Of a stretch of DNA of 64,000 bases, positions 19 through 41,955 are shown one piece after another. The first letter of the stretch is position 1; each line of letters opens with the position of its first letter. The stretch is from Hysterangium stoloniferum (taxonomy: Eukaryota > Basidiomycota > Agaricomycetes > Hysterangiales > Hysterangiaceae). The notes under the pieces were generated by a model that searched no databases, was not told the origin of the DNA, and saw only the letters and a program-made list of their open reading frames with translations. The position numbers and the translations under genes are program-made. The stretch covers positions 1 through 64,000 of the forward strand of contig WHVD01000085.1 in the NCBI GenBank assembly GCA_015178975.1, given 5' to 3'.

Positions 19-1204
19 GTGACTAGCCGATATGCGAGAGAGTTTTCGCAAGTGCCTGAGGGTGGATACTTCGCCGTCGGAGGGCAAGGACAATTCGGAC
101 CACCCTCTGATCCGAGCAGTTCCTCCAGTAGCGATGGGTCAGAGGAATCGTCAAGTAGCACTACAACCGAATGGTCAGCTAATAGGAGTGCAGACTCACC
201 TAATTCTGGGTCGGAGTCAGAGGACAATATTGGAGGCCCATCGAAAGCAGGCCAGAAGAAGAATAGAAAGAAAAACTCACCCAGTTCTCAACGGATAAAA
301 TCTGAAAGACGCAAGCAGTCCACAGCTGATGCCAAGTGGACTAAGAAACTTTTAGTGGGAGTCAAGACAAAGCAAGCTGTGGTGTACACTGGCATGGCTG
401 ACCTTGACGTCCTGGAAGCCTTTGTATATGCCTATGATCTGTGGACAGAAATCAATGGGTTAGATCGGAAATGGGCTGTGAAGTTAATAATTTACTTCTT
501 GGATGGCAAGGCCAGCGCATTCTATATGAAACATGTGGCCTTGAGCCGGAAACGATGGACACTAAAAGCCGTTTATGACGGACTTTTTGATTATTGTTTT
601 CCTGCAGATTATAAGCTGAGGTTGCGGAAACAATTGACCTCAGCCCGGCAGGGTGGAAATTGTTTCCGTGACTTTGCACGCGATGTGGAGAACAGTGCTA
701 CACGTTTCCCTGATATGCAAGAGCGTCAGCTTAAACAAATTGTGTGGGATGGGGTGCACCACTATATCAAAGAAAAGTGGTTGGATAATGGTTTAAATCC
801 AGACAATACCTCGTGGAAGCGACTCATCAAAACAGCAACACGATTTGAAGCTGCTCAGGAATTTCGTCAGGCAGAGAAAGGACGACGAGAGACCCCTTCG
901 ACGGGATCAACCCGATCCTGGCCACGACAGAATGAGCAGGCTAAACAGACAGCGGGTCAGACTGACAGTATGCGAAATACTTTTTCGTCCTACCACTGCC
1001 TCAGGGTCAGGTGTAACGGGAACTGCGACGAAAGTGCAGCAGCAAAAACTCAGTCGAATGGAAATGAATCAGCTTCGGGCAGAGGGGAGGTGTTTCATGT
1101 GTAAGAAAGAAGGTCATGAAGCCCGAAATTGCCCTCAGGGGAAGGTTGTGCCTGCTCCAAAATGGGGAAACCATGTATCAGCTGGGTCTGTGAGGGTGCA
1201 ATGA
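19..1204 (+). pseudogene. gag: Retrotransposon Gag polyprotein, frameshifted
   Basis: The first frame (19-1104) has a Ser-rich acidic N-terminus, a basic stretch and a Retrotrans_gag-like region around residues 120-290. The CCHC zinc knuckle (CFMCKKEGHEARNC, about 1097-1140) lies in the +1 frame, open 845-1204. A single-base frameshift around 950-990 has therefore split capsid from nucleocapsid. That second frame ends in TGA at 1202-1204 and the same frame then continues into pol, so a CGA-to-TGA change is the simplest reading. The product would form the virus-like particle and bind element RNA. The true start may lie upstream of the window. Confidence 0.85.
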
Positions 1205-1213
1205 CTTGCCAAA

Positions 1214-4200
1214 TTGGAAAAGAAGAAGGAGCAGGTTGACATACCTCTTCGAATGGCCTCCTTCATAATGAGCACCGTGGAGATCCAGCAGGAATTTGAT
1301 ACTTTGCACGATCGCATTTACGCTGCCTGGCTGCAGAAGTCAATTACAGAATTCTTCGGGCCAGACACAGCCATAGCTGAGGGACATAATCCGTTGACAC
1401 GGTTTGAGGTTACCTACTCACTTATGGCCTTTCTGGTGAAGGATAATGTCTTACCCGGAACTCTCCTGCGAATTGCAAAGAGAGATTGTAGGGAGCCTGG
1501 GTATCGAGTGGCCCAAAGTATAGAAGATAACGAGCAATGGGCTGTGAAACGGCTCCCTGCCCAAAGCCCTGACCGAGCTAAGGTTGCATCAATTATACAG
1601 CAGTGTTGCTGTGTGCACTTCTCGAATTCTGATTCAGTTGCAGCTGGAATACGACACACTGAACATTTTCAGGTGGTGTTTGACCAGTTATACTGGACAT
1701 ACGAGATTATTGACTGCCTTCAACCCCAATTATACATGGCGATCAGCATGTCAGCCCTCTTCCACAGCGACTGGGCCATTTCACAAGTGGTTAGTACCGC
1801 TATAATCATGGAAGGATCAACAGAGTGGGAAGCGTTACCTGAGGATGATGACTCACCAAATTTAGGGAGCAAGCATGGGACAACAGCTTCTGGGGCTTTG
1901 AAGGAGTACTCCCTGCCAGAAGAAGCGTTGCAGGAAGGCATTTCCCCTGATCTGCGCTTTAGGGTTTACACAGAAGAAGAAGGACTCCGTATCTGGGATG
2001 AGGCCAATACTGATCTCCCATTATTTATGCCTTGGTCAGTTGTAAGGCTTAATGAGGACTTCGAAGATAAAATACAGGCAGTATATGAGGAACACATACC
2101 TGGGTTCTCCCGCGATATGCCCGCCTTTAGAAGATACTGTCGAGATGCAATGTGCCAGTTGTTGGAGCTTCGCTTCCGTGTATATTATACGACGAGTATC
2201 TGTCGAGATGTCTATGGTGTGGAAAGATGGCGGTTCCGAGTCCGTTGTACCGCTGGACGATATGAGATTCACGATTGGGAGTTGGCTGTTAAGTACATAG
2301 TGACTCCAGACCACCTACAACGTGAGGAGTGGAGCATTCCTCAGATACTAGCTCACCAGGCAACCACGGGGGATTCGTCCGAGGCTAGCATTTTTGTAAA
2401 TGCTGTCCATATCCCTAAGGGGAAGCCAGCTGAAAAAAAACATGATCAGTTGCGCTATGGAGGTCTCAAAACAGTCGAGTGTACCTCAATGCAACCCAAG
2501 GATTTTACTCGCTGGTTGCCAAAACCAGTTGTCATTGAAGTGCTCATCAATGGTCAACCAGTGAAGGCTCTCATCGATAGCGGGTCACTTGCGGATTTTA
2601 TGTCAACAGCCTTGGTGGATCAGCTTCAGGTCCTTAAGGAACCACTGACCCTTCAGTTGGCTGTACATGGATCACGGTCCAAGATCAACTTTTCCACAAT
2701 GGCTCAGTTTACCTACCAGGGTATAAGTTGTTCTCGCCGTTTTGACGTGGCTAACCTTGATTCCTATGACTTGATATTGGGAACTCCATTTATTTTTCAA
2801 CACCGAGTTATGCTTGGGTTGAATCCAACACGAGTTAACATCGGGTCAAACCTACCACTTCCCCTCGAAGGGGACACAGTCACCTTACTGCACTCCACGG
2901 CAGCAGAAATCTTTGAGGATGAGTTGGAAAGGTTACGGGTGGACTTACGTGCTGAAGCAGCTGACCTTGATCCTGATACAGCATCAACGAGACTACCCCC
3001 ATTGCGGGCAGTCAATCATACTATCCCTCTGATAGACGAGGCGAAGGTTTACTCATGGCGACCATCCAAGTGCCCTGAAGCCATGCGTCAGCTGTGGCAT
3101 GATAAGAAGAATGCCTACTTACGAAATGGGCGGTGGAGAGTGGCGACGGCAGAATGCGTGTCCAATGCTAATTATTCCCGAAACCACCAAAGGCTGATGG
3201 AGCCTTGCGAATACGCACGGTGGTTGACAAGCATCAGCAAAATGCTAATACATATAAATTAGCCACACCTTTGCCAGATATCGAGGCGATCCTGCGGAAT
3301 GTGGTGCGTCATAAATATTGTAGCCTCATTGATGGCAAAGATGCATATGAGCAAATCCAAGTGGTACCTGAACACGTTTGCCGAACATTGTTCACCTCTC
3401 CTGATGGTACCATGGAAAGTTTGACATTGTAGATTGGTGACTGTAATGGACCATCCACATACCAGACTCTGATGAACCACATTTTTGCATCATACATCAG
3501 GGTGTTTATGGATGTATACCTCGACGACATTGTGGTATATTCGGATTCCATTGAAGATCACGTCAAGCACCTCCGAGTCATTTTCAAGGTGCTCCGTCAG
3601 GAGAAATTATACCTAGCAGTCGACAAGATGCATTTGTTCGCTTCGGAACTAAACATATTGGGGCATGTAATAAATGATAAAGGAGTAAAGATGGACCCAC
3701 ATAAGGTGAACACGGTAGCCAACTGGAAGGTGCCTACCAATAAGGCCCTCTTGGCTGGTTTTCTGGGAGCAGTTGGCTATCTGGCTAATAACTGCGAGGG
3801 CATTCGAATTCTGATGGCCAATCTTGCTGGGCTTACTGGTGTCAACAGGGTGTGGTGATGGGGAGCAACGGAACAACGTGCGTTTGATGATGTAAAGCGA
3901 ATTGTTCAGCTTCATCAAGATTGATATCGAATTGCTTTGGACTACTCACCGGGTCATTCAACCATCAACTTAGTTACAGATGCATGCTTGACAGGTGCCA
4001 GTGGTATCCTGAGTCAAGGCGCAGATATCAAAACGGCAGCTGTGGTGTCCTTCTGGTCCGGGAAGTTCACTTCAGCTCAACAGAACTATCCGGTGCATGA
4101 GCAGGAATTGTTGGCAATTGTCGAATCCTTGAAGCGGTTTCGTCCTCAGTTACTGGGAGTTAAGTTTCGAGTGTGTACTGACCATAAAGGAATAGAGTAT

Positions 4201-6297
4201 ATCCTTACACAGAAGAACCTATCTCCAAGGCAGACACATTGGCTGGACCTTTTGAACGAGTTTGACTTCGATATCCACTTTATTGCCGGAGAGTCAAATA
4301 CATTTGCCGATGCATTGTCGCGGATATATAGTAACGAACCTTTGGGAATTGTAAGGGCGGAGTCTGAGTATGTAACTGATGCTCCACTCCTGGATGATGA
4401 AGAGAAGGGAGCAAAGCCAGTCCCAAGGGTATGGGGGATAGGTGTGTCAACACCATTGTACATGGGGTCTACGGTACTGGTCACCAATGAACCTTCAAGG
4501 AGGTCGAGTAGGTTGGCCACTCGTCCGCATCCATCGTATGCAACCTTAGCTGGAATAGCATCACGGGGACAATGTGGCAGGAAGCCAGAAACACATACCG
4601 AGGGTCAGACCGGGGGAGGTTCCCCTGGTCATCCAGCAGAGAACCCACCACAGGAGATGGGGGCAGGTACACCTAGTGAAACCGCAGAACTCAGCCTTTC
4701 TGCGGAGAGTGCCCCACCATCAACAATGGAGGGCGGGAGGCACCAGTCACAAGGGAGATCGTTTTCCAATTTTTCTCTAGCAAATATTATGTCAGAGCCT
4801 AATCCAGGGTTGGACATTCCTGAGGTATTTCGTGGAAGGTATGGTACTGACCGTTTCTTTTCAAAAATATTGGCCGCACTGCAGGAGTATAAAGGCTTCG
4901 AGTCACAAAATGGCCTTTTGTTTTTCAATATGGCAGGGAGCAAACTCCTTTGTATCCCAGATATTGCTGTGGGCAACCGACGGGTGCGGGAAATGTTGAT
5001 TTCACATGCTCATTCGATTTTGGCTCATTTAGGAGCGCGGAAAACTGCCACATACTTGCGAGCAACGGTGTGGTGGCCATTGATGACAAAGGATGTTGAG
5101 GTGTTTTGCAGGTCATGTAGTGTGTGTGCTACATCCAAATCCGATACGCAGCGATCACAGGAACAACTCCGCACACTAGAAGTACCCTCACATCCATGGG
5201 AGGCCATTGGCATTGACTTTGTTGGTCCGTTGCCGGTGTCAAAGAATCGCCTTGGGGAGTTTGACAGCATTTGCGTAATCATCGACCATTTAACGTGTAT
5301 GGTCCATCTGGTTCCTGCGCAGACCAACTATACCGCTATTCACATGGCGGAAGTGATATTTGAACATGTTTATAAGTTGCATGGATTGCCAGTGAGGATT
5401 GTTAGTGACAGAGACTCACTGTTCACAAGCATATTCTGGAGAGAGATTCATTGGCTGATGGGAGTAGAGTTGCGGATGTCATCGGCGTATCACCCTCAGA
5501 CTGATGGAGCCACTGAACGAGCGAATCGGACTATGATGCAAATGTTGCGGCAGTGTGTAGCACCAAATCAGAGAGACTGGGTCTCAAAATTGCCCGCTAT
5601 CGAGTTCGCAATGAATAACGCTACATCCAAAACTACAGGGTTTTCTCCTTTTTTCCTGAATTATGGTCGGATGCCTCATCCAATGATCTGGGAGAAGAAC
5701 ACAATGTACCCTGGCGTCCAGGATTTTGCAGAGCAAATGAAATTGGTGATTATGACTGCCCACGACGAAATCCTCATCGCTAGGGTGAAGCAGACAAGGC
5801 AGGCCAATCGACACAGGCGGGCTGTTGATTTCAGAGTCAATGATCTCGTATATTTATCTACCAAGAACTTACGGTTGCTGAAGCATCGCACACGAAAGCT
5901 AGTACCCAAGTATATTGGGCCATTCAAGATCATTTGTGAACTTGAGCCAGGGGCCACTTATGAGCTGGAACTGTCCCCCGAGTTAAAGAGACAAGGGATT
6001 AACCCGTCATTTCATGCGTCCTTGTTGCGTATCCACATCCCGAATGACGATCGTCTATTTCCTGGCAGGCAGCTGAAACAGATTCCAGGGTTTGGCCAAT
6101 CATCTAGGGACTGGATCGTGGATAAGATTGTGGCTCACAGTGGGAAAGGCACTGATGCCTTGTTTGAGGTCGTATGGAATACCGGGCAAAATACTTGGCT
6201 TCCATATAGAGATGTGCAGAACTTGCTGCCCTTGCAGGCATACCTGGAGGCTGTTGGTGTTGCAAATGTACGATCATTGAAAACGGGGTCCGGGTGA
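1214..6297 (+). pseudogene. pol: Gypsy Pol polyprotein (protease-RT-RNase H-integrase-chromodomain), disrupted
   Basis: The frame from 1214 carries an aspartic protease with the DSG active site (ALIDSGSLADF, near 2570-2600). A frameshift near 3205-3262 moves the reading to the frame holding RT, with the catalytic YLDD intact near 3515. In that frame there are three stops: TAG 3430-3432, TGA 3856-3858 and TGA 3922-3924. From 3937 the frame is open to 6297. It holds RNase H (LVTDACLTGASG), the integrase HHCC zinc finger (HAHSILAHLG...CRSCSVC), the integrase DDE residues (GIDFVG, SDRDSLF, ATERANR) and a chromodomain at the C-terminus (WIVDKIVAH...TWLPYRDV). A 100-residue low-complexity spacer separates RNase H from integrase. 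The integrase half looks unbroken; the RT half is dead. Confidence 0.92.
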
Positions 6298-9922: not shown

Positions 9923-11276
9923 ATGCTCTCTTTGTGGGTTGTCGCAGGGTGTAGCTCTCGCATCTACACACCGAAGCATTGCGACGGCGGTACGTGCCTC
10001 TGTCGCTGAAAATAACTTCCCACTGAGCGATGTTATTAAGACGACCAACGTAAATTATACTGTAGACCGATGGGTCAGTAATATTCATTCTAACTCGACT
10101 TGTGAGTTTACGTGCCATTTTATATAGACTTATAATCAAGAGAATTTCAGTCCATGGCTGGGTAAGTAAAATTTTCCACAATTCAAATCTAAATACAATC
10201 TCAGCTTGATTCAATGTAGTGGCTTCTGCGCTTCAGGCAGCGTGCAACGGTGGCAGTATGTTCTTTTTCTCATTTTTCCCCTTAGACCATTTACACAGGT
10301 ATTCTCCAGACTGGAATATCTCTCCATTAGACCCAGATATATATTACACTGGTCCCTACCAAGGCGAATCAAACAAATGTATATGCAGTACGGTACTTTA
10401 CTCGCTCATGTCAGCCTGTGGTGCATGTCAGGGACGCGGTATCTCGACGTAAGCACTCATTACGGATATTTTAATTACCTATTCATCTATCATTTACCAT
10501 CCTTAACAGGTGGAGTCAATGGAGCCTAAACTGCACAGCTTCAGACATCGCCATCGGCCAATTTCTCGTCACAATCCCGCCAGGTTTATCCATCCCTAGC
10601 TGGGCTTACCTCAATGTTACAAGTCTCAACGTTTGGGACCCATAAGCAGCTCTTATTTCCCATAATTCCGGCGCACCGGACAGTACAGTAGCAGCTTCAG
10701 CAACAGGAACTCTAGCATCAACTGGAACTCTGACGTCGGTTGGAACTCTGGCGTCAGTCGGAACTCTGCAACAGGAACTCCAACGTCAACCGGAACTCCG
10801 CATAAGAAATCGAACCAGACAGGCGCGATTGCAGGAGGTGTTGTAGGAGGCGTTGTAGGACTTGCGTTGATTGCCATGACTGTGTACGCCTTAATGAGGT
10901 CGCGCAATACCACGCCCCAAGTTTCCACGCCCCAAATTTCCAGTGGTGATGGAGAAAAGTCTGCTCTGGCGGTCAGCGCATGCTCTGGCGGATTCCCCTC
11001 GCCAATTGTCCCAATGCAGACTGAGCCATGCAATTATTATGTAAAGCCTTCGGTGCTATGACGTTTCCTATAACTTACTTTCATCCTCACCAGAATCCTT
11101 CTGATCCGAGTACATCTCCCAACGCTTCTGCTCCAACACTCCCCTCATACGCGCCTGCGGTCGTCTCCTCTGGCAACGTAGCTGCATACTATCATCCGCA
11201 GAATCCCGGGGCATTACCCACCAACGGCAGTCTCAGCGGACAGTATAGAGGGGTTCCTGAGCTATATGAACCTTAA
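9923..11276 (+). pseudogene. 8-Cys ectodomain single-pass membrane protein, copy A (pseudogene)
   Basis: Seven exons by alignment with the intact paralogues: 9923-9989, 10041-10073, 10128-10161, 10220-10255, 10310-10448, 10510-11040, 11094-11276. The ectodomain motif CICSTVLYSLMSACGACQ (exon 5), the glycine-rich membrane helix and the cytoplasmic tail are present. Defects are a one-base insertion in the signal-peptide exon (GCAGGGTGTAGC against GCGGTTGTAGC in C), a TAA at 10643-10645 where copy F has TCA, and a shift in the repeated linker before 10800. The SPC cysteine of exon 3 is Trp (SPWL). Copies A and C are close relatives, sharing the NPSDPST exon-7 start and the ELYEP ending. Confidence 0.8.
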
Positions 11277-12936
11277 CGGTGATCAAGTGGTCATCACGTC
11301 TTTAGTCCATTGGTGATTGAAGGCGAGGCAAGGGTAATTATCCCTAGCTTGCACTGTACTGTTAACCCTTATCTCCACTTACTCACAACGGTTGACTTAA
11401 TATTTTCGCTCTCTTTATGAACTCCTCGGAGCTATACCGTGATCTAAACCCCTTCGCTATTGTTAGGACAATCTATGGCGTTCTTGACTTGGTTGATAGA
11501 TACAAAAAACCGTCATATGTATTTGTGTAGATGGATTAACTCATCGTATTCAATGTTCAGGTATAATTGTCTTTGTGTCCTTCAAGGAGCGTCGCACCCA
11601 TGAGGATGCCACTTGAAGCCGAATCCATGACTCCCCCGGTCCAGTATAGACTCATTTACTGAATTCATACGGTCTACTCTCGACGGTTATTTTGTACAGC
11701 GGATTTGGAAACAAAAAGGGCATGAAAATAGCACCGTATACCGTGAGCTACATAGCAAAACCGCGTGCGTGGCACTCCACCGCTTGCAACATCCTGATTA
11801 AAATATTTCAACACTTTAATGATTAATATCATCGTCGAAGCACTTAGCAATCTGATATGTGTGAAGTGGTCCCTCTGATCAGCGATCATGGCGCAGAGCA
11901 GGTGAAGGTATACACTAGAAGTCTTGTAAAATTAGCCAACGAAGTGTGATTTCACGCTATCTTTGGAATATATATTTGTGGTGTGTCTATGTATGCATTG
12001 AAGGCTTCCGTTGACGGCTCCCTGACCTGTATTAAAGCACTTATAGTGGACTGTAAATTTCACTTCGAATCTTTCAAGCCCAACAAAAGTACTGGAGGAG
12101 AGATTTGAAAAATATTATGTCGTTCAATTTACAACATATTATTTCGTTAGTAGGAATGCAGGAGGATAATACAGAGGAGCCACGGGTGCTTTTGGATGAT
12201 AAAAATGATGTCTTTTGCTAATTGCGTGCATAGCAAATAAAGCGTTGGTTAACATCGCTGGTCCGCCACATCAAATTCATATTTATTGGCAACGAATCCA
12301 CTCTAATGACCATATTGAAAATTTTAGGGCATCACTCGTTAGAAAGGCCTAAAACTTGAGTAAATATATTTAACTACTCATATACACTGATTCTCAATCA
12401 TAGCAGAGCTAGCCGGTCTAGGGGAATATTTATCTAATAAATACCTCATCTAGTCTAATCACCTACCAACCTAGTAGCTGTACACGCCTTCCTGATGGTG
12501 TGTCTGGTCTGGTGCACTTCCGATGCGAGAGAACATCAATAATTCGCCCCATAATTTCCAACGAGTGCCAAATTGCCAATAGTACTGTCATAACATTACG
12601 CAATTGGTTTGGTATTATCTTGTCAAATTATTTAACAATTTACCGCTTCCATGGGTCTAAAATAATTCTAAATCCACTTTGAGATGATTTGGCTGTCATT
12701 CATGTAAGTGAGCTCCTTTCACCTGTCATGCAATTGAATATGGCGCCACTCCATTTTGGGTCCGACCAATAGAACGTTGATTATCATGCGAGAGTTTGCT
12801 TTTTGATGAAAAAAGAATGATGTGTTATCATGTGTAACTTCTTTCAGCGATGACAATGCAAGCAATCTCGTGATGGGATCGTGGAAGCCTTGCACGAGCT
12901 GTAAACTTTGAGTTTGAGCAGGTCCCACAAGGAAGT
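11277..12936. repeat. Intergenic DNA between copies A and B, duplicated at 37801-39610
   Basis: No gene recognised. The stretch parallels the DNA between copies C and D with scattered substitutions and short indels. It provides the empty site (12241-12275) for the 127-bp element inserted at 38782 in the other block. Confidence 0.65.
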
Positions 12937-13024: not shown

Positions 13025-14219
13025 ATGTTCTCTGTGTGGACTCTCGCAATTGTAGCTCTTGCATTTCCATACTTCAGCAGTGCGACAGGGGTATGTGCTA
13101 CTGTTGCTTAGAATAACTTATCACTGAGACTTATTGTCAAGACGAGCACTGTGGCTTGTATTGCAGCTCAATGGGTCTTTAATGCTCATTGTGGCCTAAC
13201 TTGTATACTTACATGCCCATTTTATAGACTTATAATCAGGAGAATTTTAGTCCATGTCAGGGTAAGCTAACTCTTCTACAGGTCTCCAACTGACGTTGAT
13301 TCAATGCAGTTGCCTCTGTTCTTGAGGCAGCATGCATTAGTGGCAGTATGTTTTTATTCTAATGTGACCCCTCGAGTCATTCACACAGGTTTGGTCTCAT
13401 TCAGCCTTGGTGATCGATCCATTAGGCACAGAGCCGTATTATAGTGGTCCCTCCGCAGACAAATCAAACAAGTGTATATGCAGTACAGTGGTTTACTGCC
13501 TCATCTCAGCTTGTGCTCTATGTCAGGAGAAAAATTTCACCACGTAAGCAAATTTCTAATCACAACACTCACTTCTCATTATCATCTTAAACAGGTGGAG
13601 TGCCTGGAGCCAGTATTGTATTGCCTCGGACATCACAATTGGTCAAATCCCCATCACAATCCCACCGCCTATATCCGTCCCTGGCTGGGCCTACCTCAAT
13701 GTCACAATTACCGATGTTTGGGACCCTGCAAAGGCACATGCTGCCCATGATGAAGCTGTGAGAAATAAATCGAGCCATGCAGGCGCGATTGCAGGGGGAG
13801 TTGTTGGTGGTGTCATAGGATTTTCCTTAGTTGCCATTGGTGTATTCCTTTTAATGAGGCGGCGCAATACCACGACCCCGGTGTCCAATGGTGGTAGGGA
13901 AAAGTTAGATGTGGCGGCCAGCCCAACTCGCGGATTCCCCTCGCCAGCCTTCCCAATGCAGGCTGACTGGCAAAGATATTATGTAAATCCCTCGTGTTAC
14001 CTCGTTTTGGGACTTTTCTGTTAACTCACTTTTCATCCACATCAGGATCTCTCTAATCCAGGGACATTTCCCAACTCTTCTGGTCCAACGTTGCCCGTAT
14101 ATGTGCCCGCGACTGCCGCTCCCGACAGCGTAGTCGCATACTACCACCCACAGGGACCCCAGCCATTACTTCCTGACACTCCGCCAAGTGGACGATATAC
14201 AGGCCTTCCTCAAATTTAA
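13025..14219 (+). CDS. 8-Cys ectodomain single-pass membrane protein, copy B (289 aa)
   Basis: Exons 13025-13090, 13142-13174, 13228-13261, 13310-13345, 13405-13543, 13595-13982 and 14046-14219 join into 870 nt with no stop before TAA. All six introns are GT-AG and about 51-63 nt. Residues 1-22 are a signal peptide (MFSVWTLAIVALAF...). The ectodomain has YNQENFSPC, CICSTVVYCLISACALCQ and a WAYLNVT strand. The Ser/Thr linker is much shorter than in D. A Gly/Val-rich helix (AGAIAGGVVGGVIGF..., about residues 160-185) is followed by MRRR, so the tail should be cytoplasmic. The family is an uncharacterised Agaricomycete type; a cell-surface role is inference. It has one extra Cys (VYCL) relative to its paralogues. 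Confidence 0.8.
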
Positions 14220-19571: not shown

Positions 19572-19923
19572 ATCAAACACATGAAAGGAAAGGGGGTCTT
19601 CCGCCTCACGACGGAACGGGCGATCGCTCTTTATTCAATTGTGATGTGGTAATGGTGGCTATTCTCCGCAACTGCCTACGTGACGCAATACTTGTCAATC
19701 ATCGACAAAGAGAAAACATTCATGCCGGACAGAACATTCTACATATGGATATATATGGAGAGCGTGTGCAGAGCAGAGTAGATATAAGACTTTATATAAA
19801 GTGACTTACAAAAGTGAACCCATATACCTATTGAATGTCACATCAGGAAATATTATTGGCAAGGCGAATTGAAGAATTGAATTGAATTGTGCAGGCAGTT
19901 CGGATGGTTGTCTGGTCAATTCC
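19572..19923. repeat. Tail of block A-B, displaced by the foldback insertion
   Basis: Resumes the sequence downstream of copy B and parallels 41265-41640 downstream of copy D. No gene recognised. Confidence 0.6.
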
Positions 19924-20051
19924 TGTTAGATTGAGTAATGCTAGCAGTGCTTCCCAGGGTCAGGTGGTGTAATGGTTAACACCCCTGGTATATATGCAGA
20001 AGCCCTGGGTTCAATCCCCAGTCTGGCCATTCATTTTCTACACTTTTAACA
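19924..20051 (+). mobile_element. 128-bp TG...CA mini-element with tRNA-like core (copy 1)
   Basis: Starts TGTTAGATTG and ends CTTTTAACA, flanked by perfect 5-bp duplications ATTCC (19919-19923 and 20052-20056). The paralogous DNA at 41630-41640 reads GGTCAATTCCAACAGAG without it. TG...CA ends with a 5-bp duplication are LTR-type, so this looks like a solo LTR of a TRIM/SMART-type miniature retrotransposon. A tRNA-headed SINE would be the alternative, but there is no 3' tail. Confidence 0.75.
19958..20028 (+). pseudogene. tRNA-like sequence with Pol III A and B boxes
   Basis: A 7-bp acceptor stem (GGTCAGG/TCTGGCC, with G-U pairs), a 4-bp D stem (GTGT/ACAC) and a 5-bp T stem (CTGGG/CCCAG) with TTCAATC loop are present. 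The A box is TGGTGTAATGG and the B box is GGTTCAATCCC. The anticodon stem keeps only CTG/CAG and position 33 is not U, so a working tRNA is unlikely. The internal promoter looks intact. Confidence 0.6.
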
Positions 20052-20056
20052 ATTCC

Positions 20057-20905
20057 AACAGAGAACATTGATCAATTTCAATTTGGAGAAGCAAGTGCAC
20101 ATGCCCAATGCATTCACTTGTATCTTTCAACCCTTATATAATCTATTAAAAATAGTTGACTTAGTTTGCCAAATTTAAGGAATTTTGCTTCTGTCCACCT
20201 TTGTGGGATATTTTAGACACTATCCCGTGCTGGTGCCTCTTTGGTTCCTGTGGTTGATCAAAAAAAAAACAGTAATATAATGTAGGAAAGATGGCATCTT
20301 CCAAGGCAAAGTTTTTGGTGGTGGTGGTGATGGTGTCACCTTTTTATTGTTCATCTACTTGAGTATACCTGAAACTGCACTTCGCTGTTAATTCAGTGAA
20401 GCTATTTGAAAAGGTAGCGCATGATGAAATCCAGACTTATTTATTTTTAAAAAAGGAAAGAAAAAGAAATGTGATTAATTACTTCTTAATGCATGAGATG
20501 GGACTCTGACCGTGATTATCTATATAGTGGTGTCCCAAAATGGACATGAGGAGAGACTACATTTACAGCCTGAGGCACATATACAGCATTAAATGTGAGC
20601 ATCTACATACCTGGTTAAATTTTGGAAAATGATAAACATATCACTGATATAATAGATGCTTTTAGGCTGTGAAGGCATTGAGTGGGATACTGCATGACAG
20701 GTGGCAAGTGAAGTATATGATTTATATTGACAATTAGAGTCACCAAGAGGCCAGTCTTGCTTGGGCTCCTAACGACACCTTCAGTTGGCAGTTTTGGATT
20801 GGTGGTATGTTTTTTTTTTTTCGTATATACAGTCTTGACATTTACTGGGATTAGGCGGAGCTAAGGTAATCGGAAATACTGCTCAAATGATGGGACCATT
20901 GGTTG
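20057..20905. other. No gene recognised
   Basis: The first 100 bases still resemble 41640-41700 (the end of the gene block). Beyond that the DNA is AT-rich with homopolymer runs near 20265 and 20810 and no frame of note. Confidence 0.4.
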
Positions 20906-28273: not shown

Positions 28274-29872
28274 CAGTGACTTACAAAACGTATCCAATGT
28301 TTTGTAGTTTCAGCTTATATATGCTATATCCCAGTAGATAAAATAGTAGAAATCGCCAAAATATTTGTGAACATGACCTATCATGTATATATTTAGATGG
28401 TAGAACTATATTATGTAATATCCATATATGGAAACACTATAAATATTTTAATGGAGAGGGTTCATTGGATACGTTTTGTAACTGACAGGTTCTGGCATGA
28501 AAACCATATGCCTATGTTGATTGTTTGCATTTGTTTATGTTTTTCAACATGTCATGTGATCATTCTATACTACAGTATAAGTTGAAGGGTTTTCTCAGCT
28601 TCCCTCAATTCTAACCATGCATCCCCTTTCCACTGCTGCCCAGTATGAGATCCTTTCTCTACTTGATGCTGGCCATTCTGCCAGACAAATTTCAGTTTCT
28701 ACTGGCTATAGCTATGCTACTATCTCTAGACTTCATTCTAAACACCATTCCCACCTTTCTAAGTCCTCTGGTGGTCACCCTTCCAAACTCTCCACAGCCA
28801 ACATCCATATTGCACAATGCCTTATCAGCTCTGGAAAGGCTGATACAGCTGTAGATGCAACGAAGGCACTTTGCACTATCACCAACCAGTCACTCAATCC
28901 TCAAACAGTGCATCATTGACTCAAGGCAGCTGGGATGAAGCCTGTGGTAAAGAAGAAAAGGCCTCTTCTTTCTAAGAGGGATAAAAAGGAGAGAATGGAT
29001 TTTACTTTGGCATATCAGGATTGGACTGTGAAGGATTGGAAGAACGTGGTGTGGTCTGATGAGACCAAAATTAATAGGCTGGGGTCAGATGGCAGGAAGT
29101 GGGTGTGGAAAAGGGCAGGGGAGGGCTTGAGTGACAGGCTGGTTGAGGGAACCCTGAAGTTTGGTGGTGGATCTTTAATGGTTTGGGGGTGCATGCTGTG
29201 GGAGGGGGTTGGGTATGCATGCAAGATTGATGGAAGGATGGATGGGGATCTCTACATCCAGATTCTGGAGGATGACCTGCAAGCCAGTCTTAAGGACTAT
29301 GGTAAATCTGCCAATGGTATCATCTTCCAGCAGGACAATGACCCCAAGCATACCTGTAAGAAGGCCCAGTATTGGTTCCAAGAAAATGGTTTCAGGGTTC
29401 TCTCATGGCCAGCACAGTCTCCTGACTTGAATCCCATTGAACACCTATGGAATGACCTGAAGAGGAGGTTGGCAGGGTATGAGAATGCACCCCAGGGGAT
29501 GGAAGAGTTGTGGGAGAGGGTGGTGGATGAATGGTACAAGATTGATGAAAAGGTGTGTCAGGATTTGATTGAAAGTATGCCTAGGAGGGTTTCAGATATA
29601 TTAAAGGCAAAGGGTGGCTACACTAAGTACTAAATACTAGTAATTTCCTGCCTAAATGTGTCAGTTACAAAACGTATCCAATGAACCCTCTCCATTGAAA
29701 TATTCATAGTGTTTCCATATATGGATATTACATAATATAGTTCTACCATATAAATATATACATGATAGGTCATGTTCACAAATATTTTGGTGATTTCTAC
29801 TATTTTATCTACTGGGATATAGCATATATAAGCTGAAACTACAAAACATTGGATACGTTTTGTAAGTCACTG
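28274..29872 (+). mobile_element. Tc1/mariner element, 1.6 kb, 216-bp TIRs, TA target duplication
   Basis: Ends are CAGTGACTTACAAAACG with TA on each side (28272-28273, 29873-29874). The inverted repeats span 28272-28487 and 29659-29874. Each arm holds the terminal motif and a second inner ACAAAACGTATCCAATG copy next to GTCAGT, the IR/DR arrangement in which transposase binds twice per end. It sits inside an intron of the recombinase gene, just after GEH|GTAAGA. Confidence 0.92.
28617..29633 (+). pseudogene. Tc1 family transposase (DD34E) with one nonsense codon
   Basis: One continuous frame of 339 codons is interrupted only by TGA at 28917-28919, where CGA (Arg) is the likely ancestor. The N-terminal part (28617-28916) has two helix-turn-helix segments (YEILSLLDAGHSARQISVSTGYSYATISRLH). 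The catalytic part has VVWSDETKI (first D), IFQQDNDPKH (second D) and SPDLNPIEHLW (E). The second D and the E are separated by 34 residues. The catalytic half after the stop is open from ATG 28935 but lacks the DNA-binding domain, so this copy could move only with transposase in trans. Confidence 0.9.
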
Positions 29873-32273: not shown

Positions 32274-32495
32274 CTGAATAAAGTGTTAGAAATGTGACTG
32301 GATGGTTTAGAGATGGGGACAACTTTGGGAGAAAAGGTTTTGAAAGGATATAATGAATAACATCCTTTTAATTTACTTGATAGTACTTGCAAAATTTAAG
32401 ACCAAAACACTTAAAATATCCCAACTAAGGCTTAGTGAAGGTTTATCACTCACTGAGAGTATTATTTAGAACTGCGCAAATAATCTCAACAGGTT

Positions 32496-33450
32496 ATGGG
32501 CCCTGCAGAACCTAGTTTCAAGAGTTATGTTGTCCTGAAACTTGACCAAGATGGATCAAATTGGGTTACCAGGAAGAACCAGATGCTGATGGTACTCAGC
32601 GCCAGTAGAGGTCTAAAACATCATCTTGAGGAAACTGCAAGGGAGCTGCTACCACCACCAACATTTGGGGCAAAGCACATAATGTCGGAAGATGATTGAG
32701 CCAAGGTCAAAGCTGCAGAGCAATGACAGGACAAATTTGAACAACACAAGGCGTCTATCAAAGCCCACATCTTCACGACTATTGAACCAAGCCTTCAGAT
32801 CAAAATTCAGAAGTTTCGAACCGTGAAAGAAGTTTGGGACGCACTGTGCACTAAGCACGAAGGCAAGTCACTGTCTGTAAAGATAGATATCAGACGCCAA
32901 ATGTATGGAATGAAATGCAAGGACGATTCAGCAGTCAAGACACACCTTGACGAGTTGACAAAAATGCAGGCTCAACTCGAAGGCATGGGTGCTGGACTCT
33001 CAAATGACGATTTGGTTACCGTTATCCTCGGATCGTTACCAAAGTCGTACCATCCATTAATCAGTGTTATATCAATGTCAGCGAAGTTCTCAGCTACAGC
33101 TTTAGAACCGGTAAAGGTCGTCGACGCCATAATCGAAGAGTACAAACAACTTACCATAGACAAGAAAAAGTCAAAAGGATCCGAGACGGCAATGGCTACT
33201 TCAAAGGGGCACAGCAAGCCAAGAGATAGCAAAAGGCCACACAGATCCGCTGAGAATATCGAATGCTGGAACTGTAGAAGGAAGGGTCATTTTGCAGCCG
33301 ACTGTCGGAAACCGAAGAAAAGGCCTGACGAAAAGGGTGATGGTCATGCAAATAGCAACACAGGCGAGAATGCGAACGTCGACATGTCAAGTAAGGATCT
33401 TGCGTTAATGACAACATTCACCAGACCCACCTCATCGCGAGAAACGAATC
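32496..33450 (+). pseudogene. gag: Copia Gag with CCHC zinc knuckle
   Basis: The frame from ATG 32496 reads KLDQDGSNWVTRKNQMLMVL and continues through the UBN2-type Gag helices (VKEVWDALCTKHEG, LDELTKMQAQLEGMG, ILGSLPKSYHPLI) to the knuckle CWNCRRKGHFAADC near 33265. Two in-frame stops, TGA 32697-32699 and 32724-32726, both fit TGG (Trp) ancestors. After them the frame is open from 32823 to 34217. Confidence 0.85.
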
Positions 33451-34217
33451 CACCCAAGCATACGGAAACTGACGTCTACAATTTGGCAATGTCAAACTAC
33501 AAGTCACCTAACCGCCGTCGATTCCCCGCCTTTAATGAAAACCGCGGGAATCCGGAACTCAAGGCTGAAAAGGGGCGTTGTGTAGGATCCAGCAGCGAAA
33601 GAAAAGGATGCCATACCTATTCACCTGGAAATCGACGCGCCATAGTAGAACGAAAAGTCAAGTTCGATGAATCAGTCGTCGAAATTTTGAACGACGCGCT
33701 GGTTGAGGGAGGGAATGACCCTACGAGCACCCAACGCGTTGTACAAAACACGTTGACCGACTCACCCGTACAATATGGACCACGGGATGAGATCCCGCAT
33801 GCAAGGATGGAACCTCTTGAGGACCTTGATGACATCACGCCAACCCCAGAGTCGGAGACGCTATGTCGAAGCCACCGTGCAGGCAAACCATCGGTATACA
33901 TCCATGATATCACAAGCGGACATGGACCGAATGAGGGAGGCCAAAATGGACCTGCATACCCCAAAGGCATACCGATAACCCCAGTGCTGATCCCCAACCA
34001 CCCACCACGCGACACTGCAGCTGTCACAGAATTGCTGCAGATTGGTAAAACTCTCGAGGATGATATCAATGAGAACTTACCGCCATTTTCGACAACGCTT
34101 GAAAATGCGATGGCCACAGCAATCCACGAATCGGAAGAACCGCTCACTAGTGTTGAGGATACGAGGTGTGGAGCAACCATTGAAGGAAACAATGGATTGA
34201 AGGAAACAATGGATTGA
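33451..34217 (+). pseudogene. Copia linker region fused in frame to Gag
   Basis: Continues the Gag frame without protease or integrase domains. It encodes a Pro/Thr/Glu-rich spacer with SHRAGKPSVYIHD, typical of the stretch between integrase and RT. It stops at TGA 34215-34217, inside the second unit of the 17-bp repeat. The protein therefore spans a deletion of more than 1 kb of normal copia sequence. Confidence 0.6.
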
Positions 34218-34486
34218 AGGAAACAATGGATTGAAGGAAACAATGGATTGAAGGAAACAATGGATTGAAGGAAACAATGGATTGAAGGAAACAATGGATT
34301 GAAGGAAACAATGGATTGAAGGAAACAATGGATTGAAGGAAACAATGGATTGAAGGAAACAATGGATTGAAGGAAACAATGGATTGAAGGAAACAATGGA
34401 TTGAAGGAAACAATGGATTGAAGGAAACAATGGATTGAAGGAAACAATGGATTGAAGGAAACAATGGATTGAAGGAAACAATGGAT
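34183..34486 (+). repeat. 17-bp minisatellite, about 18 units
   Basis: Near-perfect tandem copies of GAAGGAAACAATGGATT inside the copia element. Seventeen is not a multiple of three, and the minus strand of the unit has no stop, so three long artificial reading frames appear opposite it. Confidence 0.95.
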
Positions 34487-34553
34487 CGAACATAGTTGTT
34501 TTGAACGACATACCGCTTGAGGGAGGGAATGGACCCTGGACACTCGGAACGTC

Positions 34554-35693
34554 GTGCAAAACGCACAAAACGGTGAACCCGATGAAATGTTACCAACAGT
34601 TTCAATGCCATATGAAACCGCCATGACAACTGCAATGGAAGAAATCGATGAATCAGCAGCGAATGTCAAAGAGGTAAAATACAGTACTCAGGAACTCGTA
34701 GGACCGCCGGAAAATGATATTAATAGCAAGATCATTCCGCTGTATAAGCATGGGCCAAATGGCGAAATTACCGAATACAAACATAGGTTCGCCGCGCAAG
34801 GTTTTTCGCAGGCCAAAGTCACCGGAATTGACGTCGACGATATGACGATGACCAGAGATTCGAAGTCAGTCATCACGCGATTCAAGGACAAGCTTACAGA
34901 ATGGCTGAAGATAAAAGATCTAGGAGAAGTTCACTGGTTATTTGGAATTCAAGTAGGAAGGGACCGCACGACACGTACTATCTCATTTTTACGACGTACT
35001 AACATCAAGAAAATCGTAGCAAATTTTGGTCTACAGGACGCAAAACTGCTAACCCCACTTGATCCCCACCAGCATCTCTCGATCCAATGCCCAACCATGT
35101 CCCGTCGACGCGAAGATATACAAAACGGATCATATCGCGAAGCAGTTGTATCCCTATTGTTGCAATACATGCAGAACCACAGCCGTCCGCATTGGAAAAC
35201 CGCAAAGAGAGTTTTTCGGTACCTGAAAGGAATGCAAGACAAATCGTTAGTGATTGGCGACAAACATGACGACTCACGCAATGGCATCAAAGTCTTCATG
35301 GACATAGACTGGAACTCGCAAGAGCATCAATACTCGACATCCAGTAATTTTTTCAATATGGATAGACGCACGATTTCCTGGAATTCGAAAAAGAAACCTA
35401 TCGTTGCACTATTATCGACAGAGGCGAAATATATAGGTGCGACTCACGTTATGAAGAAAATTTTTTGGACACAGGCATTTAGAGCCGAAATCGCTTGCCC
35501 GTTCACTTGTCCTATCACCGTCAATTGCGATCGCCGATCAATGATTCCGATTATCAAGACTGGCGAATTTCACACTCCCACGAAGAACATTGATAAGCAA
35601 AATCGCTGTATTCACGATGTAGCTATGAGACGACTCACCTCCATGCCGCTACATCCCTACAGACGACGACCCCGCCGGCCCCCAAAACATTAG
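34554..35693 (+). pseudogene. Copia RT (partial) and RNase H, internally deleted
   Basis: The frame opens with an acidic spacer and the RT entry motif EYKHRFAAQGFSQAK (about 34770-34810). It then jumps to the RT thumb/connection (LTEWLKIKDLGEVHWLFGIQV), so the YxDD catalytic segment is gone. RNase H follows (HWKTAKRVFRYLKG, DIDWNSQ, ISWNSKKKPIVALLSTEAKY) with a conserved STEAKY box. The C-terminus is arginine-rich. The frame is open to TAG 35691-35693 but cannot make an active polymerase. Confidence 0.82.
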
Positions 35694-36504: not shown

Positions 36505-37800
36505 ATGTTCTCTTTGTGGGCTATCGCGGTTGTAGCTCTCGCATCTACACACCGAAGCATTGAGACGGCGGTGCATGCATATGTGGCTGAAATAGCTTCA
36601 GACGACCACTGCAACTTGTACTACAGACCTATGGGTCTGTAACATTCATTCTAACTCGACTTGTGAATTTACGTGCCATTTTATGTAGACTTCTAATCAG
36701 GAGGGTTCAAGTCCATGTTTGGGTAACTAAACTTTTCTACACTTCAAATCTAAATACAGCCTCAGCTTGATTCAATACAGTCGGTTCTGGGCTTCTCGGC
36801 GCGTGCAACGGTGGTAGTATGTCCTTATTTTCATTTCACCCCTTGGGGATCAATTACACAGGCATTCTCCAGACTGGAATATCCCTCCATTAAACCAATT
36901 TTCGCATTATAGTGGCCCTTACGTATACGAAGTAAACAAATGTCAATGCAGTACGGTGGTTTACTCGCTCCTGTCAGCCTGTAGTGCATGCCAGGGACAC
37001 AGTATCTCGACGTAAACACTCATTATGGATATTTTAATTACCCCACTCATTTACCATTTATCATCCTCAATAGGTGGAATCAATGGAAGACAAACTGTAC
37101 AGCTTCGGACATCACAATCTCTCAATCCCCCGTCACAATCCCCTCCGGTTTTTCCATCCCTAGCTGGGCCTACCTCGATGTTCCTACCCTCGGGGTTTGG
37201 GACATGGCGGCGTCACTTGCTAACCATAATTCTGACCTGCCGGACAGTACAGTAGCAGGATCATCAACTCCAACGTCAAGTGGAATTCCAACGCCAAGTG
37301 GAACTCCAACGCCAAGTGGAACACCGCACAAGACATCGAGCCAGACAGGCGCGATTGCAGGAGCTGTTGTAGAAGGTGTTGTAGGACTTCCCTTGATTGC
37401 CATGACTGTGTACGCCTTAATGAGGTGGCTGAATACCACGCCTCAAGTTTCCACGCCCAAAATTTCCAGTGGTGATGGGAAAAGTCTGCTCTGGCGTTCA
37501 GCGCATCCTCTGGCGGATTCCCCTCGCCAATTGTCCCAATGCAGACTGAGCCATGCAATTATTATGTAAAGCCTTCGGTGCATTGACTTTTCCTATAACT
37601 CACTTTCATCTTCACCAGAATCCTTCTGATCCGAGTACATTTCCCAACGCTTCTGCTCCAACACTCCCTTCATACGCGCCTGTGGTCGTCTCATCTGGCA
37701 ATTAGCTGCATACTATCATCCACAGAATCCCGGGGCATTACCCACCAACGGCAGTCTCAGCAGACAGTATAGAGGGGTTCCTGAGCTATATGAACCTTAA
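36505..37800 (+). pseudogene. 8-Cys ectodomain single-pass membrane protein, copy C (pseudogene)
   Basis: Exons by paralogy: 36505-36570, 36602-36634, 36689-36722, 36781-36816, 36873-37011, 37074-37565, 37619-37800. The ectodomain (SNQEGSSPC, CQCSTVVYSLLSACSACQ) and the helix are readable. Intron 1 has shrunk to 31 nt with a GTGCAT donor, probably too short to splice. A one-base deletion near 37478 shifts the cytoplasmic tail, and another in exon 7 turns AACGTAGCT into AATTAGCT, giving an early TAG. The extracellular part could still be made if intron 1 is removed. Confidence 0.78.
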
Positions 37801-38781
37801 CGGTGATCGAGTGGTCATCCCGTCTTTAGTCCATTGGTGATTGAAGGCGAGGCAAGGGTAATCACCCCTAACTTGCACTGTACTGTGAACCCTTATTTCC
37901 ACTTACTCACAACGGTTGACTTTAACATTTTCGCTCTCTTTTTGTACCCTTCGGAGCTATACCACCCCTTCGCTATTGTTAGGACAATCTATGGCGTTCT
38001 TGACTTGGTTGATAGATAAAAAAAACCGTCATATGTATTTGTGTAGATGTCTTAACTCATCGTATTCAATGTTCAGGTATAATTGTCGTTGTGTCTTTCA
38101 AGGAGCGCTGCACCCATGAGGATGCCACTTGAAGCCGAATCCATGACTGCCCCGGTCTGGTATAGACTCATTCATTGAATTCATACCGTTTACTCTCGAC
38201 GGTTATATTGCACAGCGGATTTGGAAACAAGAAGGGCATGAACATAGCACCGTATGCCGTGAGCTGCAGAGCAAAGCCGCGTGCGTGGCACTCCACCGCG
38301 TGTAACATCCTGATTAAAAGATTTCAACACTTTAATGGTTGATATCACCGCCGAGGCGACTTAGCAATCTGATATGTGTGAAGTGGTCCCTCTGATCAGC
38401 GACCATGGCGCAGAACACGTGAATGTATACACTAGAAGTCTTGAAAAATTAGCCAACAAAGTATTATTTCACGCTATCTTTGGAATATATATTTGTGGTG
38501 TGTCCATGTATGCATTGAAGGTTTCCGTCGACGGTTCCCCGACCTGTATTAAAGCACTTGCAGTGGACTCTGTATTTCACTTCGAGACTTTGAAGTCCAA
38601 CAAAGTACTGGAGAAGAGATTTGAAAAACAAAACTTGTGTCGTTAAATTTATATGATATCATTTCGTTAGCAGGAATGCAGGAGGATAATATAGAGGAGC
38701 CACGAGTGATTTTTGGATGATAAAGATGATGTCTTTTGCTAATTGCGTGCATAGTAAATAAAGCTTTGGTTAACATCACTG
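37801..38781. repeat. Intergenic DNA downstream of copy C, duplicate of 11277-12260
   Basis: Parallels the region downstream of copy A base for base, apart from substitutions and small indels. No gene recognised. Confidence 0.65.
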
Positions 38782-38908
38782 TGTTAAAAGTGTAGAAAAT
38801 GAATGGCCAGACTGGGAATTGGACCCAGGGCTTCTGCATATATAGCAAGGGTGTTACCACCACACCACCTAACCCTGGGAAGTACTGCTAGGATTACTCA
38901 ATCTAACA
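38782..38908 (-). mobile_element. 127-bp TG...CA mini-element with tRNA-like core (copy 2)
   Basis: Minus-strand copy of the element at 19924, beginning TGTTAGATTG and ending TTTTAACA. It is flanked by CACTG on both sides (38777-38781, 38909-38913), and the paralogue at 12241-12275 reads AACATCGCTGGTCCGCC without it. The tRNA-like core has drifted: the B box is GGTCCAATTCC and one base of the D loop is lost. The ends are the same as in copy 1. Confidence 0.75.
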
Positions 38909-38913
38909 CACTG

Positions 38914-39713: not shown

Positions 39714-40987
39714 ATGTTCTCTGTGTGGGCTCTCGCAATTGTAGCTCTCGCATTTCCATACCGAAGCAGTGCGACAGCGGTATGTGCTACTGTTGCTTAG
39801 AATAACTTATCACCGATAATTATTGTCAAGACGACCACTGTAGCTTGTATTACAGATGAATGGGTCTTTAATGCTCATTGTGGCTTAACTTGTACATTTA
39901 CATGCCCATTTTATAGACTTATAATCAGGACCATTTAAGTCCATGTCTGGGTAAGCCAACTCTTCCACAAGTCTCCATCTGACGTTGATTCAATCCAGTT
40001 GCCTCTGCTCTTCAGGCAGCATGTGATGGTGGCAGTATGTTTTTATTCTAATCTGACCCCTTGAGTCATTCACACAGGTTTTGGTTTCTTTCAGCCTGGA
40101 ATGTCGGTCCATTGGGTCCAAATCGGCATTATATCGGTCCCTCCGCAGACGGATCAAACAAATGTATATGCAGTACAGTGGTTTACTCCCTCATCTCAGC
40201 CTGTGCTGAATGTCAGGGGAATAATATCATCACGTAAGCACTCGTTATAAACATTCTAATCACAACACTCACTTCTCATTATCATCTTAAACAGGTGGAG
40301 TCAATGGAGCTTCAATTGCACTGCCTCAGACATCACAATTAGTCAATTCCCCATCACAATCCCACCGGCCATAGCCATCCCTAGCTGGGCCTACCTCAAT
40401 GTTACAACCCCCAATGTTTGGGACTATGCGGCGGCACTTGCTGTCCATAATTCCGGCGCGCCGGATTCCACAGCGGCACCTTCAGCTACTGGGGCTCCGG
40501 CCTCAGCCGGAACTGTGAGAAAGAAATCGAACCATGCAGGCGCGATTGCAGGGGGAGTTGTTGGTGGTGTCGTAGGACTTTCCTTAATTGCCATTGGTGT
40601 GTTCCTTTTAATGAAGCGGCGCAATACCACGACGCCGGTGTCCAATGGTGGTAGGGAAAAGTTCGATGTGGCGGCCAGCCCAACCTCGTCTCGCGGGTTC
40701 CCCTCGCCAACTTTCCCAATGCAGGCCGACTGGCAAAGATATTATGTAAATCCCTCGTGTTACCTGGTTTTGGGACTTTTCTGTTACTCACTTTTAATCC
40801 GAATCAGGATCGCTCTAATCCAAGGACATTTCCCGACTCATCATTGCCCGTATACGTACCCGCGACTGCCACTCCTGACAGCGTAGTCACATACTACCAC
40901 CCGCAGGGACCCCAGTCATTACCCCCCGACAGTCCGCCAGGTGGACAATATACAGGCACTCGTCAATTTCAAGCACCCTACCAATGA
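39714..40987 (+). CDS. 8-Cys ectodomain single-pass membrane protein, copy D (312 aa)
   Basis: Exons 39714-39779, 39831-39863, 39917-39950, 39999-40034, 40095-40233, 40295-40745 and 40808-40987 give 939 nt in one frame ending TGA. Residues 1-22 are a signal peptide. Ectodomain cysteines fall in ACITDEW, NQDHLSPC, AAC, KCIC, SAC, AECQ and FNC (eight in all). A Pro/Ala/Thr linker (about 154-180) precedes the helix at about 186-209 (AIAGGVVGGVVGLSLIAIGVFLLM), followed by KRR. The tail has FPSPTFPM and YTG motifs shared with the paralogues. Exon 1 read alone meets TAG within intron 1, so the 51-nt first intron is essential to the model. It is closest to copy B. Confidence 0.82.
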
Positions 40988-41955
40988 GGGAATCGACGCC
41001 CTGTCCTTAACAGGTTCGCAAGACAGGTCGACGCTAATTCCCCCACCCCCCTCCCCAATTTTCACTGTGTTTACCCCTTATCTCCACTTATGAACAACGG
41101 TCTATTTCAAAAAATTCTTTTTATTTACGTGACGATCGATGTATGTCCCGGAACGTAACGTGGTCTAAGGGCTTCGCGATTACAATGATAATCTAGGCGT
41201 TCTTGATTTAAGCACGATTTTGTTTTATGCCGGTATAACACATCACCAAGAAATCATGGCAGCGGCCTTCTACCAAACGCATGAAATGAAAGGGGGTCCT
41301 CCGCCTGACGACGGAACAGGCGTGGATCACTCTTTATTTAATTGTAATCTTCTATCGAGTGTTAATGACGGCTATTCTCCGCAACTGCGTACGCGACGCA
41401 ATACTTGCCAATCATCGACAAGGAGAAAAAATTCATGCCGGACAGAACATTCTACATATAAATATATATGGGGAGCTTGTGCAGAGCACAGTAGATATGA
41501 CTTTATATAAAGTGACTTACAAAAGTGAACCCATATACCTATTGAATGTCACATCAGGAAATATTCTTGGCAAGGCGAATTGAAGGATTGAATTGAACTG
41601 TGCAGGCAGTTCGGATGGTTGTCGGGTCAATTCCAACAGAGAACGTTGATCAATTTCAATTTGGGGAATCAAGTGTGCATGCCCAATGCATTCACTTTGC
41701 ATCTTTCAACCCGTGATGCCATAACCTCACACAAGTGCTGGATATTCTCCTATCGAATCATTTAACAGTTCACAACTTAGCGTTAAAGTTTCAATGCGGA
41801 TCTCGAGAGCTGACAATGAGTGATATTCGCGTTTGTCTGAGCTCTGTCAAACGCGTGAGGAAAACTAGGAACAGCGACTCGACTAATATATCCTATGAAC
41901 CAGCTGACGAAGCTTCTAGTAGCTTCTAGCGCTCGCAATACTTCAACACTTAGAT
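40988..41955. repeat. DNA downstream of copy D, duplicate of 14220-14514 plus 19572-20150
   Basis: Supplies the uninterrupted target sites of the foldback element (near 41270) and of the 128-bp element (near 41635). No gene recognised. Confidence 0.65.

Follow-up and report, generated by a model that had tools for sequence, protein, structure and literature searches.

Two solo LTRs with tRNA-like cores in the window

The window analysed here, 64,000 nucleotides of the Hysterangium stoloniferum contig WHVD01000085.1, contains two copies of a short element that we refer to as family F1. Copy 1 is a solo LTR of 128 bp on the forward strand (19924..20051), and copy 2 is a diverged solo LTR of 127 bp on the minus strand (38782..38908). 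Both have TGTTA...TAACA ends, and each is flanked by a perfect 5-bp target site duplication (TSD) of its own, ATTCC for copy 1 (19919..19923 and 20052..20056) and CACTG for copy 2 (38777..38781 and 38909..38913); ends, coordinates and duplications had been proposed from the letters of the window alone (the sequence-only reading) and proved exact. The same reading had claimed an empty paralogous site inside the window for each insertion, and alignment of both flanks bore this out: they meet with a 5-bp overlap at 41630..41634 (copy 1) and align at approximately 12256..12260 (copy 2). The duplicated stretches that contain the two empty sites lie near a tandem protein family (10666-11061, 13560-14024, 36985-37569, 40260-40886, 43518-44222 and 47415-48026), whose members look single-membrane-spanning by eye and have a Pfam match below the cut-off; the five best protein relatives of one member, taken as a stop-to-stop frame, all came from H. 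stoloniferum (41-55% identity). Other mobile-element remains in the window include Gypsy-type retroelement pieces (797-6297), with RNase H, integrase zinc-binding and core, and Tf2-1-like SH3 domains at 3925-6297, and a Tc1/mariner-like transposase fragment (DDE_3, 28920-29633).

Across its whole length (128/128 bp), copy 1 shares 98-99% identity with 39 further places in the genome (best 40 scored of 541 candidates), and copy 2 is 93-94% identical to other scored full-length copies (40 scored of 535 candidates). A tRNA-like core in copy 1 (19958..20029, forward strand) matched the Rfam tRNA model RF00005 with 41.7 bits (E value of 2e-05 for the whole window) in the covariance-type search that had been recommended for it. 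The three tRNA stems claimed are complete in both copies (acceptor 7/7, D 4/4 and T 5/5 pairs); the anticodon arm of copy 1 looks poor by eye. By the consensus sequences of the two promoter boxes, an A box (TGGTGTAATGG) was assigned to 19965..19975 and a B box (GGTTCAATCC) to 20008..20017, both on the forward strand and identical in their letters to LTR positions 42-52 and 85-94 of a sister copy. They are followed on the same strand by TTTT at 20034..20037, a candidate weak Pol III terminator, and by a second TTTT at 20044-20047. The core of copy 2, in which the B box is altered, fell below the Rfam gathering score and was called tRNA-Ile(TAT) by ARAGORN (38804..38874, minus strand).

F1 is a family of 411-bp elements with paired LTRs

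The whole genome (111 Mb, 554 contigs) was surveyed with words from the LTR and from the internal region, allowing up to 3 mismatches, which gave 471 LTR and 79 internal matches; the reversed control patterns of both words had 0 matches each. A complete F1 element consists of an LTR of 128 bp, an internal region of 155 bp and a second LTR of 128 bp (411 bp in total), and is non-coding. The internal region ends with AAGGGAGTG before the 3' LTR, a purine-rich stretch with one T that is a candidate polypurine tract. Among the complete copies at the fetched loci, an exact 5-bp TSD was found for 37 of 40, namely 22 of the 24 solo LTRs and 15 of the 16 two-LTR copies (including L015, whose 3' LTR is truncated); in both solo LTRs lacking an exact TSD the mismatch is a single base, and the target sequence varies between copies. 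These sets leave out incomplete-end fragments as well as four internal-LTR composites and three LTR-internal fragments without a matching TSD. Where the LTRs of a two-LTR copy could be compared base by base, 11 of 13 pairs were identical and the other two differed at one base, so that F1 was active recently; two further TSD-flanked copies, L015 (truncated) and L068 (indels), lie outside this comparison. Given 471 LTRs against 79 internal regions, most F1 copies are solo LTRs.

The sequence-only reading had suggested a genome search for directly oriented LTR pairs that enclose a short internal region and a primer-binding site in it, and such pairs are present. It had also named features that would speak for another kind of element, and these were sought: there is no poly-A tail, the TSDs are fixed at 5 bp, leaving no SINE signature, and no inverted repeat of at least 12 bp occurs within 19600-20400. 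A DNA transposon or MITE was rejected on this last result together with the paired direct LTRs. Paired LTRs and exact 5-bp TSDs identify F1 as a terminal-repeat retrotransposon in miniature (TRIM) and not as a SINE or DNA element, and the original reading was right in that the element is miniature, is of LTR type and has a tRNA-type promoter sequence inside it.

The primer-binding site matches the host initiator tRNA

Immediately after the LTR, the internal region of F1 opens with GGTTATGGGCCCCGC, the primer-binding site (PBS). Over 15 nt it is perfectly complementary to the anticodon arm of the initiator tRNA-Met (iMet) of the host, GCGGGGCCCATAACC, as read in two of the three genes (L096 and L097); a first pattern for the host iMet genes had no match, and a relaxed one found 3 places, all called tRNA-Met. 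The complementarity to the anticodon arm implies that the primer is a fragment of the tRNA, cleaved within its anticodon loop, a mode of priming stated for Drosophila copia and yeast Ty5 (PMC10886601). The tRNA-like part of the LTR itself was ruled out as primer by eye, as the PBS pairs with host iMet; in Helenus elements, likewise, no complementarity was found between their own tRNA-like part and the PBS (PMC10886601). With up to 1 mismatch allowed, the junction of TAACA and PBS has 1,005 matches in the genome (none for the reversed control) and is thus common to many retroelements. Beyond the PBS, the 155-bp internal region of F1 had no Copia match in the loci examined.

A separate repeat with a tRNA-Lys(CTT)-like core and an intron-like insert was seen at L106-L110 and L125 (on C98, C526, C112, C410, C68 and C61), with a period of about 420 bp where pairs were seen. 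Many similar 94-95-nt tRNA matches were listed on C112, one stretch of which was read (L108). The primer site GGTTATGGGCCC is missing from this repeat at the three loci checked (L106-L108).

A second family with its own tRNA-like part

A second family, F2, has an LTR of 251 bp, an internal region of 66 bp, the same PBS as F1 and a tRNA-like part of its own. The tRNA-like parts of F1 and F2 differ in sequence, and both form 16/16 of the counted stem pairs (acceptor 7, D 4, T 5). Several stem pairs are changed on both sides between the families, which may reflect descent from two different tRNAs and nothing more; owing to this possible origin the paired changes were not used as evidence of selection. 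One F2 tandem array (L080-L082, C4:59677-60879) has four LTRs of 251 bp each, with three internal regions of 66-67 bp between them.

F1 and F2 are fused to Copia-type elements at the primer site

Two pattern scans, for an F1 LTR end followed by the PBS and then by non-F1 internal sequence, revealed six sites at which an F1 LTR runs exactly at the LTR/PBS boundary into the internal part of another retroelement (C58, C135, C533, C140, C290 and C540). Three of them came from the first scan (C58, C135 and C533). Among the 42 matches of the second, five were F1 ends (C58, C135, C290, C540 and C140), and the remainder, judged by their letters, were 35 usual junctions of the F2-partner Copia and two cases of the LTR of this Copia running into the F2 internal region. 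Matching outer TSDs were present in four of the six composites: AATAC in C58, GCCAT in C135 (with one extra G at the 3' side), TGAGA in C533 (whose 3' partner LTR carries an insert) and AGGTA in C140. The order in C58, C135 and C533 is partner LTR, F1 internal region, F1 LTR, partner internal region and partner LTR; C290, read without its 3' end, has the junctions of C58, and C540 is truncated both at its 5' side and in its F1 part. The partner sequences of C540 and C290 are 99% identical over 121 bp, and the F1-to-partner junction is common to both. In C140 the order is reversed: an F1-related LTR is followed by the partner internal region, almost no partner LTR, the F1 internal region and again an F1-related LTR (read from both ends), the F1-related LTRs being 90% identical to F1, and the stretch before the F1 internal region has 79% identity with the 3' coding part of the F2-partner Copia. 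Pfam searches identified a Copia gag domain in C135, and gag and integrase core domains in C533.

At least five of the 79 F1 internal regions lie in composites (C58, C135, C533, C290 and C140), a lower bound from filtered scans and not a rate; that of C540 is too truncated to count among the 79. Junction contexts were read for 24 distinct F1 internal regions of the 79, some of them chosen as odd-looking, and four of these were in composites; C140 and C540 were added later. Counterparts free of F1, in which the partner LTR is joined directly to its internal region, were found for C135 (L066) and C533 (window 32443-32791), and none for C58 or C290 in the loci searched. The counterpart in the window belongs to a decayed Copia element (32443..35693, forward strand) with an LTR end, an iMet-type PBS and Pfam gag and RVT_2 pieces; joined without F1, the last 50 bp of its LTR and 300 bp of its internal region are 86% and 80% identical, respectively, to the C533 partner, whose LTR as used in comparisons was 10 bases too long at the 5' side. 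By eye, minus-strand repetitive frames at 34077-34687 (with FLQSIVSFNPLFPSIHC repeated) are a tandem repeat inside this decayed Copia. At the 3' partner LTR of C135 (L104), the extra G, which separates the LTR from the TSD copy, equals the first base of the PBS and may stem from imprecise primer removal.

Similar structures involve F2. At C2:477284-482106, an F2 LTR, a Copia internal region, a Copia LTR, an F2 internal region and an F2 LTR lie between TTTTT duplications, a TSD that is weak because it is simple sequence, and the Copia part has one 1,212-aa frame with RVT_2, an integrase core and three more pol-type domains. In C14, a Copia element contains an F2 LTR that is continued by another Copia internal region, and the outer Copia LTRs have the TSD GGAAC. 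C35 and C68 contain a Copia LTR, an F2 internal region and an F2 LTR with the junction seen in C2 (one end read).

Every F1 or F2 composite joint that was read falls at the LTR/PBS boundary, the place at which LTR retroelements undergo strand transfer and cDNA joining. The LTR end and PBS are common to F1 and several Copia-type families, which would allow F1 and Copia cDNAs to be joined there. We give about an even chance to the proposal that this Helenus-type element shares particles with several unrelated Copia families and becomes covalently linked to them at the iMet half-tRNA site in the course of reverse transcription, making new integrating elements, in some of which a Copia coding region lies between two outer LTRs of the Pol III type (C2 and C140). 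The composites could instead have arisen after insertion and without co-packaging, through recombination of an F1 or Copia cDNA or chromosomal copy by homology at the 20-odd common bases of LTR end and PBS, and this we regard as a serious contender, if somewhat short of probable. A single TSD around one outer LTR pair fits insertion first and exchange later, the F1 parts and partner LTRs are similarly diverged, which is compatible with either order, and the tandem arrays of F1 and F2, which are of the same form, could be produced by either route. However, the homology in the one case measured (C58) is limited to 22 identical bases shared by F1 and partner, which is short for ordinary recombination; moreover, the joints read are all at the LTR/PBS boundary, and C290 and C540, with their common junction and nearly identical partner, look as if a composite had moved or been duplicated.

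The tRNA-like part is a putative Pol III promoter

From its sequence we infer that F1 would be transcribed by Pol III from the tRNA-like part. The LTRs of F1 and F2, in spite of their different tRNA-like sequences, both fit the A- and B-box patterns, whereas the four partner LTRs tested fit neither and two of them contain a TATATA word. Only 34 bp of the F1 LTR lie upstream of the tRNA-like part, without a TATA-like word by eye, which leaves little room for a Pol II core promoter. An F1 transcribed by Pol II, the usual polymerase of LTR retroelements, with the tRNA-like part kept as a relic or for RNA structure instead of as a working promoter, is consequently unlikely, though it draws on several observations. 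TTTT stands 4 nt after the tRNA-like part in each F1 LTR and could stop Pol III before the internal region, and in 15 distinct ungapped F1 LTRs, which are nearly invariant, the A and B boxes are no more conserved than the remainder of the LTR, so that these LTRs lend no support to selection on the promoter. As to termination, a run of at least five T within 50 nt was found at 13 of 17 host tRNA-like loci (some of which may be pseudogenes or repeats, L124 being of the tRNA-Lys-like kind), whereas F1 and F2 have only T4, which we take as favouring weak termination.

Two further readings have next to no probability. A tRNA-derived SINE family mobilised by a LINE would account for a short element of high copy number with A and B boxes, but is contradicted by the paired-LTR copies with an internal PBS, by constant TGTTA...TAACA termini with nearly always exact TSDs, and by the lack of an A-rich tail. 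A functional tRNA gene spread by chance was rejected in spite of tRNA-Ile(TAT) calls by ARAGORN in 4 of the 6 F1 loci scanned, as the spreading unit is the whole 128-bp LTR with its TSDs and copy 1 received no call, which also makes it unlikely that F1 RNA is a working tRNA.

A model for F1 propagation

We consider it very probable that F1 is a 411-bp Helenus-type TRIM with a tRNA-derived A/B-box Pol III promoter in its LTR, and propose that it is mobilised by Copia elements and sometimes joined to them as cDNA. According to this model, TFIIIC and Pol III would start RNA synthesis in the 5' LTR, either at the tRNA-like part or a short distance upstream. Some of the transcripts would pass the weak T4 of this LTR and terminate at that of the 3' LTR, and the tRNA-like part would thereby form the repeated R region, supplying every new copy with a promoter. 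The minus strand would be primed at GGTTATGGGCCCCGC by a piece of host initiator tRNA-Met cleaved within the anticodon loop, and Copia proteins acting in trans would package, copy and integrate F1 with its 5-bp TSD. Recombination between LTRs would leave solo LTRs such as the two copies in the window, and the cDNAs of F1 and of several Copia-type elements would sometimes be joined at their common LTR end and PBS to give composite insertions. Pol III transcription, read-through of T4, the end in the 3' LTR and the role of Copia in trans are steps that we infer from sequence. The dependence on Copia proteins is the probable meaning of the common PBS and the fusions, and the protein-coding retrotransposons fused to F1 are probably those that mobilise it.

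Relation to Helenus and other miniature retrotransposons

TRIMs with a tRNA-like sequence in the LTR have been described as Helenus from fungi, animals and one plant, and grouped with Cassandra and Ajax as TRIMp3 (Kojima 2024, PMC10886601); the arrangement is therefore not new, as the sequence-only reading had supposed, and is already known from fungi. F1 has two direct LTRs with a tRNA-derived part, a length below about 1 kb, no coding capacity, a PBS and 5-bp TSDs, and joins the Helenus-type TRIMs as a further family, likened to the catalogued ones by their published description. Its 411 bp lie within the Helenus range of 311-1263 bp (PMC10886601). In fungi, Helenus elements have 5-bp TSDs, the PBS in most of them matches the anticodon loop of a tRNA, most often iMet, and their partner is likely to be Copia (PMC10886601); F1 resembles them in its TSDs and PBS, in its many solo LTRs and in having Copia as a likely partner. 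It differs from the Helenus report in its physical fusions with Copia elements in one genome. The Copia dependence of Helenus was inferred from PBS similarity and one cross-species internal match, and Pol III promoter activity is unproved there as well (PMC10886601).

An LTR of 128 bp is also not among the smallest, as had been suggested: one Helenus LTR has 120 bp (PMC10886601), and FRetro129, a SMART element of 292 bp in total, has LTRs of 85 bp according to excerpts of its description (PMC3281118). As excerpted, FRetro129 is like F1 a very small LTR element with a 5-bp TSD, a putative Copia partner and LTRs unrelated to those of the partner, but it is smaller, these excerpts mention no tRNA-like promoter, and its internal region is 96% identical to that of the partner, a match of a kind not seen for F1 (PMC3281118). 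Cassandra of plants is another TRIM with a small-RNA-gene promoter in its LTR (PMC10886601), and an excerpted source describes tandem arrays for it, as seen for F1 and F2 (PMC7215508). The Cassandra LTR is derived from 5S rRNA and accompanied by a plant PBS, whereas that of F1 is tRNA-derived; a Cassandra reading of F1 was rejected, as the window has no 5S match at the Rfam gathering score, which only the RF00005 tRNA reached. In cereals, complexes with an inner LTR and one 5-bp TSD have been attributed to template switching when two RNAs packaged together are reverse-transcribed (Sabot and Schulman 2007, PMC1950507). These join members of one family with the switch at the R region, whereas in the composites described here the joined families have unrelated LTRs and meet at the PBS. 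In the excerpts of the open-access literature consulted, no Helenus-Copia or other TRIM-Copia fusions of this kind were found.

The fungal hosts of Helenus are Pucciniales, Agaricus bisporus and Coprinopsis cinerea in the host table, from which Hysterangiales and Phallomycetidae are missing, and Amylostereum areolatum in the text (PMC10886601); excerpts of one paper naming Hysterangium stoloniferum do not mention Helenus. F1 extends Helenus TRIMs to Hysterangium and thus to the subclass Phallomycetidae. Elements of the F1 kind have been known since 2024, and it is the fusions that should interest specialists, as their position at the primer site names candidate partners for a Pol III TRIM with LTRs unlike those of any autonomous element. 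If the composites do result from shared reverse transcription, they would provide testable TRIM-Copia pairs, a genomic record of the autonomous elements used by a TRIM, and a mechanism of LTR-type exchange by which a coding retrotransposon could swap to tRNA-type LTRs.
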